From Candidatus Methylomirabilota bacterium (GTDB lineage Bacteria; Methylomirabilota; Methylomirabilia; Methylomirabilales; Methylomirabilaceae): a stretch of 64,000 bases of DNA. The stretch is from assembly GCA_003104975.1 (NCBI GenBank), contig PQAM01000008.1, forward strand, positions 186,001 through 250,000, in the 5' to 3' direction. Position 1 is the stretch's first letter. Every line of letters begins with the position of its first letter. Shown piece after piece: positions 58,245-61,327 of this stretch. A model generated the notes under the pieces. That model worked only from the letters and a program-made list of their open reading frames with translations. It ran no database searches and was not told the DNA's origin. The position numbers and the translations under genes were made by a program.

Positions 58245-58353
58245 ATTCGTATCGGCGAGTAGGGTGCCGAAGGGGGGATCAGGGGGACTCAATGCGGAAA
58301 TGAATATGCCTATGGGGTCGCCTGGGGGCGTTGGTGAACTCTGAAGCCACAGG

Positions 58354-58464
58354 TTATCCCAGCCAGATCAGCAGCTTTGTCACATACCGCATCGCAAACA
58401 TCGAGGCCAACAGCAGGGCCATCCCCAAAACCAACTGCACGTGGCGCCACTTATCAGGTTGCAT
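58354..58464 (-). CDS. 36-aa single-helix membrane protein
   Basis: A very short gene read MQPDKWRHVQLVLGMALLLA then SMFAMRYVTKLLIWLG, stop TAA at 58354. One membrane helix (VQLVLGMALLLASMFAM) with a basic N-terminal side suggests an inner-membrane miniprotein. GGAAGGGG lies 1-8 nt before ATG 58464. It follows the selenoprotein frame by 46 nt on the same strand, so a shared transcript is likely. Function unknown. Confidence 0.6.
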   Translation of the reverse strand: MQPDKWRHVQLVLGMALLLASMFAMRYVTKLLIWLG

Positions 58465-58510
58465 ACCCCTTCCTCATGCACGCCGACGACCGTCGGCCTC
58501 TTTATACCGC

Positions 58511-58726
58511 TCAGGTCCCGCCAAACCCGATGGTTACCTTACCCTGCTCTACAATGACAGGGACATCGCGTGAGCCCTTCGAAAATTCCAACATCCGGGC
58601 CAAGGCTTGGGGATCCTTCTGGACGTTGAGGTACGTGAATGGGACGTTTCGTTTGGCATAGTCCTCACGGGCCGCCTGGGTATAGGGTCAGGTATCCTTC
58701 CCGTAGATGATGACCGGTGCTTCCAT
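58511..58726 (-). CDS. UXX-star-type glutaredoxin-like selenoprotein (in-frame UGA = Sec)
   Basis: A 71-residue protein read through a TGA at codon 13 (58690-58688). Before it: MEAPVIIYGKDT; after it: PYTQAAREDYAKRNVPFTYL, NVQKDPQALARMLEFSKGSR and DVPVIVEQGKVTIGFGGT, then stop TGA 58513-58511. The Sec replaces the first Cys of a glutaredoxin CPYC motif (here U-P-Y-T), and VPVIVE...GGT is the cis-Pro/GSH-binding end of the fold. This matches the UXX-star selenoprotein family as I remember it. GGAGG lies 5 nt before ATG 58726. A hairpin with a G-containing CGUGA loop starting about 19 nt after the UGA could be the bacterial SECIS. Expected role: thiol or selenol redox in the cytoplasm. Confidence 0.8.
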
Positions 58727-58766
58727 GGCTTCCTCCATCGGCTTCAGTCCTTCTGATCTCGGCCGG

Positions 58767-59111
58767 TCAGACTCGTGTTGTGTATCGGTCGGCCTCTGTG
58801 GTCAGCCGCTCGTACGCTCGCTTGATCTCGCGAATCTGCGGGTAGAGCTCCTGGATCCTCTCATGGGGAAGTGGAATGACCCGGCTCAATTGAGTCAGCC
58901 GCTCCCCAAGCAGCTTGGCCTGCTTGAGGATCTCGATCTTCTGTTGTGCCGGCGCGGAAAGCGTCGCCTCTTCCAGAAGTGCCAGCATCCCGTCCTCGTC
59001 GCGTGCCTGGTACAGCGCCTCCAACTGTTGCGCCTGGTTCTCCGTGAGGCCGCTTTCCACCAGGGTGTGGAGGGCCTTCATCCGATCGATTCGATATCGA
59101 ATATCGAGCAT
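58767..59111 (-). CDS. Hypothetical helical protein upstream of the selenoprotein
   Basis: A 114-aa soluble, mostly helical protein (LVESGLTENQAQQLEALYQA, ILKQAKLLGERLTQLSRVI, ELYPQIREIKRAYERLTTEA) with coiled-coil character and no Cys. AAGGAG lies 6 nt before ATG 59111; longer frames upstream would run through the promoter. It leads the small operon 59111 to 58354 (this gene, selenoprotein, miniprotein), 40 nt before the selenoprotein start. Family and function unknown. Confidence 0.6.
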   Translation of the reverse strand: MLDIRYRIDRMKALHTLVESGLTENQAQQLEALYQARDEDGMLALLEEATLSAPAQQKIEILKQAKLLGERLTQLSRVIPLPHERIQELYPQIREIKRAYERLTTEADRYTTRV

Positions 59112-59208
59112 GGTCTCTCCTTCGTGCACCGTCCAATCATCATTACGCCGCGTGCATCTTAGCACACCTTGTGCCTTACCACCAATGTCTGAACATATGG
59201 AGGTGAAT

Positions 59209-59246
59209 GGTGATTTTATATCACCAAAATTACGGCATTTTGTCAA
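59209..59246 (-). promoter_or_regulatory. Promoter with overlapping palindrome for the selenoprotein operon
   Basis: On the minus strand TTGACA (59246-59241), 17-nt spacer, TGATAT (59223-59218). The palindrome GGTGAT-N5-ATCACC (59209-59225) covers the -10 box, so it could be an operator for a dimeric repressor. Confidence 0.5.
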
Positions 59247-59361
59247 CGACCCGGTAATCGCCTTGACGCCCATCCGCCACGACCCGGCTGTATGTGATAT
59301 ATTATGCTCGGTATGCAGTGTCTCGTGTTGAGCGACTAGTGGGGGAGGGACCGAACCCGGC

Positions 59362-60027
59362 ATGAAATTCCCGTTTACCCTTGATCGTCTGGCTGCGCAA
59401 GACATCCGGATGATCTTCCGTGTCGTCGCCGAGTTTGTCGACGGATTGGAGGCGCTTGCCGCGATTCCGCCCGCGGTCTCCGTCTTCGGATCGACCCATA
59501 TCGGACGAGATGACCCCGCCTATACGATGGCGGAACAGATCGGTCGCCTGTTGGTTCAGAATGGGTATGCCGTCCTGACCGGCGGGGGTCCCGGGGCCAT
59601 GGAGGCGGCCAACAAGGGCGCCTTTGAGGCGGGCGGCGTATCGATCGGCCTCAATATCGAACTCCCCCAACAGCAGGAACCTAATCGATACCTGACCAAC
59701 CTTGTGAATTTTCAGCACTTCTTTGTTCGGAAGGTCATGTTCGTGAAGCATTCCGTCGCGTTTGTTATCCTGCCGGGCGGCTTCGGCACGCTGGACGAGC
59801 TGTTTGAATCGATCACGCTGATCCAGACCAGAAAGATCAAGCCGTTTCCGGTCATTCTGGCGGGGAACGATTACTGGCGTGGCCTGGGGGAGTGGCTGCG
59901 TGATCCGGTCATGCACGGGGGGAAGATTACACCGAACGACCTCACACTGCTCAAGACGGCCCATAATCCTGAGGAGGTCATTCGGATCATCAAGGATTCT
60001 TCGATCTCCGAATTTCATACCCCGTAG
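59362..60027 (+). CDS. LOG-family protein (TIGR00730-like)
   Basis: A 221-aa Rossmann-like protein. SVFGSTHIGRDDPAYTMAEQ, LTGGGPGAMEAANKGAFEAG and VILPGGFGTLDELFE (residues 133-147) are the LOG/lysine-decarboxylase-like signatures; members act as nucleoside-5'-monophosphate phosphoribohydrolases or bind nucleotides. The start ATG 59362 is followed by FPFTLDRLAAQDIRMIFR. It is followed by nth after 44 nt. Confidence 0.82.
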   Translation: MKFPFTLDRLAAQDIRMIFRVVAEFVDGLEALAAIPPAVSVFGSTHIGRDDPAYTMAEQIGRLLVQNGYAVLTGGGPGAMEAANKGAFEAGGVSIGLNIELPQQQEPNRYLTNLVNFQHFFVRKVMFVKHSVAFVILPGGFGTLDELFESITLIQTRKIKPFPVILAGNDYWRGLGEWLRDPVMHGGKITPNDLTLLKTAHNPEEVIRIIKDSSISEFHTP

Positions 60028-60071
60028 CCCGCTATGGTCGTCGGCGTCCCGAGGCCCTTGAGGACAGGGAG

Positions 60072-60731
60072 ATGATCACGAACAGACAGATTGATTCCGT
60101 CTTGCGGTCGGTTCGCCGGACGATCTCCGCGTGGGAGCCCGCTGTCGTGGGTCAGATCGCCGAGGCGTCCCGTGATCCGTTCCGGGTTCTGATCTCGTGC
60201 ATCCTGAGCCAGCAGACCAAGGATCCCATCACAGGCGAGGCCTCAGAGCGGCTGTATAAGCTGGCGGACCGACCCGATACGATGCGTGCGCTGAGCGAGC
60301 AGCAGATCGCTCGAGCTATCTACCCGGTCAGTTTCTACAAGACCAAGGCTGCAACCCTTCGCAGGGTCTGCCACGGCCTGATCACTCGATTCGGCGGGCA
60401 GGTCCCCGACACGATTGACATGCTGCTGACGCTCCCTGGCGTCGGGCGTAAGACCGCCAACCTGGTGGTCACCGTCGGCTACGGGAAACCGGGGATCTGC
60501 GTCGATACCCACGTCCATCGTATCTCGAATCGCTGGGGTTACGTCAACACCACGACCCCAGAGCGGACCGAGGCGGCCCTCCGACTGAGACTCCCGAAGC
60601 GGCACTGGATCTGTTACAACGACCTGCTGGTCCCGTTCGGTCAGCACGTCTGCCGCCCGATCTCTCCCTTTTGCAGTCGCTGCCCCATCGAACGCTGGTG
60701 CGCCCGGGTCGGCGTGACACGGCATCGCTAG
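60072..60731 (+). CDS. nth: Endonuclease III (DNA glycosylase/AP lyase)
   Basis: A 219-aa base-excision repair enzyme for oxidised pyrimidines. ILSQQTKDPI near residue 40 (catalytic-helix region), helix-hairpin-helix LPGVGRKTANLVV with the catalytic Lys near 124, the essential Asp in CVDTHVHRISNR near 142, and the 4Fe-4S cluster CRPISPFCSRCPIERWC near the C-terminus with spacing C-x6-C-x2-C-x5-C. All key residues are present. Confidence 0.94.
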   Translation: MITNRQIDSVLRSVRRTISAWEPAVVGQIAEASRDPFRVLISCILSQQTKDPITGEASERLYKLADRPDTMRALSEQQIARAIYPVSFYKTKAATLRRVCHGLITRFGGQVPDTIDMLLTLPGVGRKTANLVVTVGYGKPGICVDTHVHRISNRWGYVNTTTPERTEAALRLRLPKRHWICYNDLLVPFGQHVCRPISPFCSRCPIERWCARVGVTRHR

Positions 60732-60733
60732 GG

Positions 60734-61156
60734 TTACACATCAAAGACGACCCGGGCGCACCAGCGATTGTTGTCCTGCCGACATTCGAGCAGATGATAG
60801 GTGGCCGCCTTGACCACACCCCTCAACTGAGGGCATCCCGTCTCTATCGACTCACCCACCAACTCTCCGGTCGCGCGCACGCCCTCGACCGCTGTCACCC
60901 GAATATCGGCGGGCGCCCATTCCTCGGCCTCGCATCGGTATAACAGCTCGTTCAGCCATGCAACCAGCAGGGAGGGCAGATCACTTCCGCGCGCCTCAAC
61001 AGACAGCAGGCCGGCAGGGCGTACGGTTGCCGGATCGACCATCAACGCAAACATCCCTCGTGCGGCGTTGGCGAACAGTTCCTCCACCGTCTCGCCCCAG
61101 ACCGTAATCCCGACATCCGCCGTTGTCTCGAACGACTCATAGCCAAGATCTGTCAT
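60734..61156 (-). CDS. Archease
   Basis: A 140-aa protein. YESFETTADVGITVWGETVE then ELFANAARGMFALM at the N-terminus and LLVAWLNELLYRCEAEEW in the middle are archease signatures. The C-terminus (VKAATYHLL ... ARVVFDV) closes the fold; its metal ligands include the N-terminal Asp and C-terminal Asp. Archease stimulates RtcB RNA ligase; rtcB is not in the window. It ends 2 nt from the convergent nth gene. ATG 61156 is used; a longer start would run into repeat copy B. Confidence 0.88.
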   Translation of the reverse strand: MTDLGYESFETTADVGITVWGETVEELFANAARGMFALMVDPATVRPAGLLSVEARGSDLPSLLVAWLNELLYRCEAEEWAPADIRVTAVEGVRATGELVGESIETGCPQLRGVVKAATYHLLECRQDNNRWCARVVFDV

Positions 61157-61200
61157 GTCTGGCCTCTGGAGGGCGCAGCAAGCAGCGCCCCTACGGCCTT

Positions 61201-61327
61201 GGGTGGGCGGCGGGTGGCGACGCGTCGTCGATGGCAGGCGAAGCGCGGACAGCGCAGGCTGCCAGCGCCGATTCGAGCCGTACACGGATGTACGGCGAGA
61301 TTAAGCAGCGCCACCCACCGTCCACCC
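61201..61327. repeat. 127-bp structured repeat, copy B
   Basis: Same length as copy A. The terminal stem (GGGTGGGCGGCGGG with CCCACCGTCCACCC) keeps most pairs of copy A: two A-T pairs became G-C, one became G-T, and one C-A mismatch appeared. The inner hairpin is GCCGTACA-CGGA-TGTACGGC. Located between archease and the MacB permease gene. Confidence 0.85.

Follow-up and report, generated by a model that had tools for sequence, protein, structure and literature searches.

The results presented here indicate that a minus-strand locus in a Methylomirabilota (NC10) bacterium with a Candidatus Methylomirabilis-type genome very probably encodes a 74-residue UXX-star family 1 protein with two selenocysteine (Sec) residues. 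As judged from the sequence, this reading is the best explanation of the locus as a whole. The locus lies within the window, the 64,000-nucleotide stretch of DNA that was analyzed. It belongs to an already described kind of double selenoprotein; the present analysis adds a revised gene end, a second Sec and a SECIS hairpin positioned after the stop codon (SECIS-2).

Gene structure and family membership

The minus-strand frame starts at ATG 58726, and TGA-readthrough translation from this position gives MEAPVIIYGKDT-U-PYTQAAREDYAKRNVPFTYLNVQKDPQALARMLEFSKGSRDVPVIVEQGKVTIGFGGT. The initial annotation had described this frame and start, a GGAGG ribosome site, an in-frame TGA at 58690-58688 in the context YGKDT-U-PYTQAARE, and a frame end with VPVIVE...GGT; all are present in the sequence or its translation, with GGAGG at 58736-58732. 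The proposed gene end at 58511 and length of 71 residues have to be revised. The sequence from the second TGA on reads TGA GCG GTA TAA, and the TGA at 58513-58511, a conserved recoded UGA, is almost certainly a second Sec, from which the frame runs on through Ala-Val to TAA and ends at 58502, giving a protein of 74 residues. The features of the locus are as follows.

58502-58726, minus strand: coding sequence of the predicted UXX-star family 1 selenoprotein, 74 aa, U13 and U72, stop TAA
58732-58736, minus strand: ribosome-binding site GGAGG, 5 nt before the ATG, seen in the sequence
58688-58690, minus strand: UGA-1, predicted Sec13, opening the glutaredoxin active-site motif U-P-Y-T
58655-58676, minus strand: candidate SECIS-1, loop CGUGA, loop start 19 nt after UGA-1, weak here
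58511-58513, minus strand: UGA-2, predicted Sec72, in the third-last position (U-A-V-stop)
58502-58504, minus strand: true stop codon TAA, seen in the sequence; the stop type varies among homologues
58482-58497, minus strand: SECIS-2, GCCGAC[GGUC]GUCGGC, wholly 3' of the stop codon
58767-59111, minus strand: upstream ORF, 114 aa, without a Pfam match, separated from the gene by 40 nt and conserved across the genus
58354-58464, minus strand: downstream ORF, 36 aa, with one hydrophobic stretch, directly after SECIS-2

The 71-residue frame matches NF041114 (UXX-star selenoprotein family 1) with 122.8 bits and E = 4.9e-36, far above the curated cut-off of 72 bits, which confirms the UXX-star glutaredoxin-like family first suggested from the sequence alone. 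Read through UGA-2, the match rises to 125.7 bits and covers model positions 1-70 of 70; a search of the genome with NF041114 also matched positions 1-70 through two TGA codons. Pfam PF00462 (Glutaredoxin) gives 42 bits against a threshold of 22.9. Given the NF041114 E-value and the retention of TGA at UGA-1 in 54/54 distinct homologues, the frame is not a product of chance. The locus had also been expected to appear empty to standard gene finding. The expectation holds for simple ORF calling but not beyond it, since the family is covered by a curated NCBIfam model. A gene caller limited to a single recoded UGA would miss the functional C-terminus; for the family in Methylomirabilota, the present analysis corrects where the gene ends, how long it is and how many Sec it encodes.

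The accessible text of a 2026 review lists NF041114 as "distant Grx-like protein 1", with UxxT and two Sec (PMC13188914). The window's protein shows no difference in kind from UXX-star family 1, with which it shares a full-length match, UxxT, two Sec and a Sec-X-X-stop C-terminus. The C-terminus also agrees with the family name, if UXX-star is taken to mean Sec-X-X-stop, which is our own interpretation. UXX-star families 2 and 3 (NF041211 and NF047338) and the HUGP/GUXX-star fusion (NF045501) have the same fold and belong to the common subfamily NF041212, but scores of 58-66 bits fall below their own curated cut-offs of 100, 97 and 325, respectively, and the protein is therefore not a member of any of them. 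Haft and Tolstoy (2025) is probably the main source on families 2 and 3. A literature search for selenoproteins of Methylomirabilis found nothing relevant.

Conservation of both UGA codons

The 54 distinct homologues come from Methylomirabilota and from records labelled Acidobacteria, Deltaproteobacteria, Armatimonadetes, Planctomycetota and Nitrospirae. All 54 keep the reading frame across the UGA, which upholds the reading of UGA-1 as Sec in the initial annotation, and all 54 have TGA at both sites. UGA-2 is followed in every homologue by an A/G/E/S codon, a V/I codon and a stop. The amino acids encoded by these two codons are conserved while their third bases vary, and the stop itself is TAG in 24, TGA in 16 and TAA in 14. 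Among 14 members of the genus, the variable sites between the two UGAs number 17, 13 and 50 at codon positions 1, 2 and 3, and therefore the stretch from UGA-1 to UGA-2 is translated and under protein-level selection. Invariant positions in the family include Sec13, Thr16, Ala19, Arg20, Val55-Pro56, Gly67, Gly70 and Sec72.

Where the window's protein has its two Sec, relatives encoded on plasmids of Thermus and Sulfobacillus carry Cys (GCPYT...GRGCVV and SCPYT...GQGCVA, respectively). They are approximately 40% identical to the window's protein, have CPYT at the active site and score above the NF041212 subfamily cut-off. On sequence grounds, these Cys/Cys relatives give the classical Sec/Cys pairing at both UGA sites. 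Their genes (L078 and L079) sit in clusters of hydrogenase maturation genes (hypE and hypF), a setting that offers a lead to function, whereas the window's genome has no match to HypE above the curated cut-off. A role in hydrogenase maturation, prompted by this context, was dropped for that reason.

UGA is a legitimate stop codon. If only UGA-1 encoded Sec, UGA-2 would be a normal stop and the product would have 71 residues, a frame that already matches NF041114. It is hard to see why a normal stop would be TGA in every homologue when the stop two codons on varies freely, or why the two codons in between would keep their amino acids while their third bases change. The Cys at the UGA-2 site in the Cys-encoding relatives and a covarying SECIS hairpin after UGA-2 (below) also argue against a single Sec. 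This reading is rejected as very improbable, based on the conservation of UGA-2, the Cys counterparts and SECIS-2. The two in-frame stops under the standard code could also mark a decayed gene or a chance frame with nonsense codons. The signature of purifying selection across both UGAs, the identical UGA positions in several phyla and the complete Sec machinery in the genome leave this reading with almost no probability, and a pseudogene is rejected on the codon-position pattern and the conservation.

Selenocysteine machinery

The presence of selA, selB, selC and selD, on which the initial proposal depended, was established in the window's genome. SelA, SelB and SelD are found with 591, 380 and 412 bits, respectively, and selC is a tRNA-Sec gene with anticodon TCA. 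The selD gene (L015, G000:C15:56022-56948) has its own in-frame TGA, suggesting that selenophosphate synthetase is probably itself a selenoprotein in this genome. The tRNA-Sec model has one more match in the genome (L004, G000:C3:50105-50202), which scores 54 against a gathering score of 47 bits and is not recognised by ARAGORN. Another glutaredoxin-like frame in the genome holds a single in-frame TGA (L002:1441-1705, G000:C10 near 307677; QITVYSQAG-U-GSCHQEK...). It is YruB-like, with 76 bits, under the cut-off of 88.55, and a stable hairpin (-10.6 kcal/mol) follows the TGA; this frame probably encodes an additional selenoprotein.

Recoding signals

SelB with Sec-tRNA-Sec would read both UGA codons. 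Bacterial SECIS elements typically lie directly downstream of the UGA, within the coding region, and the accessible text of the review gives the limits of the published bSECIS model as a loop of 3-9, a stem of 4-16 bp, a G in the first two loop positions, a spacing of 16-37 and an energy of at most -7.5 (PMC13188914). SECIS-2, with -11.7 kcal/mol, a 6-bp stem and a loop that starts 20 nt after UGA-2, is within every one of these limits. Of the 54 homologues, 49 have a comparable hairpin after UGA-2, against 8.9% expected. The stem starts after the stop codon in all 49 homologues that have the hairpin, and GGUC is the commonest loop (21). In an alignment restricted to the GGUC-loop group and cut around the hairpin, and thus biased towards structure, four of the six pairs show compensatory changes, pairing holds in 99% of cells and the signal is lost in slid controls; the controls for the 49/54 count are free of this bias.

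It is probable that the gene has two separate recoding signals and that the signal for UGA-2, a hairpin just past the true stop codon, lies entirely in the 3' UTR behind the real stop two codons on. If so, a ribosome that had inserted Sec at UGA-2 would go on to terminate just three codons further along, in many members at yet another UGA, while the hairpin in front of it remained folded. SECIS-2 would then be a natural bacterial 3'-UTR SECIS free of coding demands, whose covariation is sufficient to establish the structure. The 16 of 54 homologues that have U-X-X-UGA provide a natural test of how a bacterial ribosome distinguishes a Sec UGA from a stop UGA three codons on. No description of a post-stop SECIS-2 was found in the accessible text of the two papers covered, which include the review (PMC13188914). 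On the plus strand, the SECIS-2 palindrome (58482-58497) was flagged as terminator-like, which is probably a by-product of the palindrome.

UGA-1 would need a signal of its own in the downstream coding region, probably with a loop approximately 19 nt on. The hairpin drawn in the initial annotation is present at 58676-58655 with its loop at 19 nt, and its loop, G and spacing fall within the published bSECIS limits (PMC13188914, accessible text). Its stability is another matter: the drawn hairpin has only -4.5 kcal/mol and the best fold of the region -6.7, both above the limit of -7.5, and 141 of 200 shuffled sequences are at least as stable (fold z-score +0.62). Across the homologues, the region is no more stable than synonymous shuffles (mean z -0.16). 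The pair that closes the loop at nucleotide 19 has a mean probability of 0.12 versus 0.02 expected from synonymous recodings, an excess that comes mostly from some distant relatives (L058, L069, L070, L076 and L077), each above 0.9, in which a hairpin with this closing pair dominates. The location first given for SECIS-1 may thus be right, although it cannot be read from the window's sequence by itself.

Fold and proposed function

AlphaFold2, run on 40 family members, gave a mean pLDDT of 89, and the best PDB matches to the predicted model in Foldseek are glutaredoxins (TM ~0.79). The modelled protein is a thioredoxin-like fold with an N-terminal CxxC/S/T-type motif. It is predicted to be a glutaredoxin fold that ends after the last strand, with the C-terminal helix absent and Sec72 near where that helix would start. 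Sec13, as had been proposed from the residues on either side of it, is where glutaredoxins with a CPYC motif carry their nucleophilic Cys, and the Thermus and Sulfobacillus relatives have Cys there; in place of the second Cys of the motif stands Thr16. The protein shares the fold and the nucleophile position with classical glutaredoxins (Grx3, NrdH and YruB-like). Unlike these, it has no second active-site Cys and no C-terminal helix, and has a C-terminal Sec instead; it scores below the cut-offs of all three families.

In glutaredoxins, the Gly-Gly segment borders the active site, and the region where the C-terminal helix starts borders the GSH site. From the fold and the motif, it is plausible that Sec13 and Sec72 form a redox couple or a pair of metal ligands. 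Sec72, by the Gly-Gly segment, could partner Sec13 as the resolving selenol in a selenenylsulfide or diselenide relay; alternatively, it could be the second ligand, with Sec13, for a soft metal. The latter raises the question of whether the protein is mainly a binder or carrier of soft metals or metalloids (e.g., Hg, As, Cu or Se species) through its two selenols, rather than a redox enzyme. The accessible text of the review proposes that the Sec residues of UXX-star proteins may act as metal ligands (PMC13188914). The UPYT motif has no second active-site Cys, as in monothiol types, and a multicopper oxidase and an SCO1-like gene lie within 4 kb. However, the active-site layout and the VP segment (cis-Pro position) are of the thiol-disulfide oxidoreductase type, and the distant homologues examined do not keep the copper genes as neighbours. 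A mainly metal-binding role is considered less likely than not.

Neighbouring genes

The initial annotation also placed a promoter-operator pair upstream of the gene; this was not borne out, and a search of 58300-59400 returned no sigma-70-like promoter. With 40 nt between the upstream ORF and the gene, co-transcription is more likely. LOG-family, HhH-GPD and archease genes lie beside the window's copy (59362-61285) and also near some distant homologues (L042-L046, L064, L068, L069 and L071), from Deltaproteobacteria and another Methylomirabilota family, and their occurrence is not consistent. In most of the genus, the selenoprotein gene is flanked by the 114-aa ORF upstream and the 36-aa hydrophobic ORF, both of which are probable operon partners. 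A tblastn search with the 36-aa ORF found 11 further distinct loci in the genus, with 47-78% identity; at 58354-58464, this ORF is too short for most gene callers.
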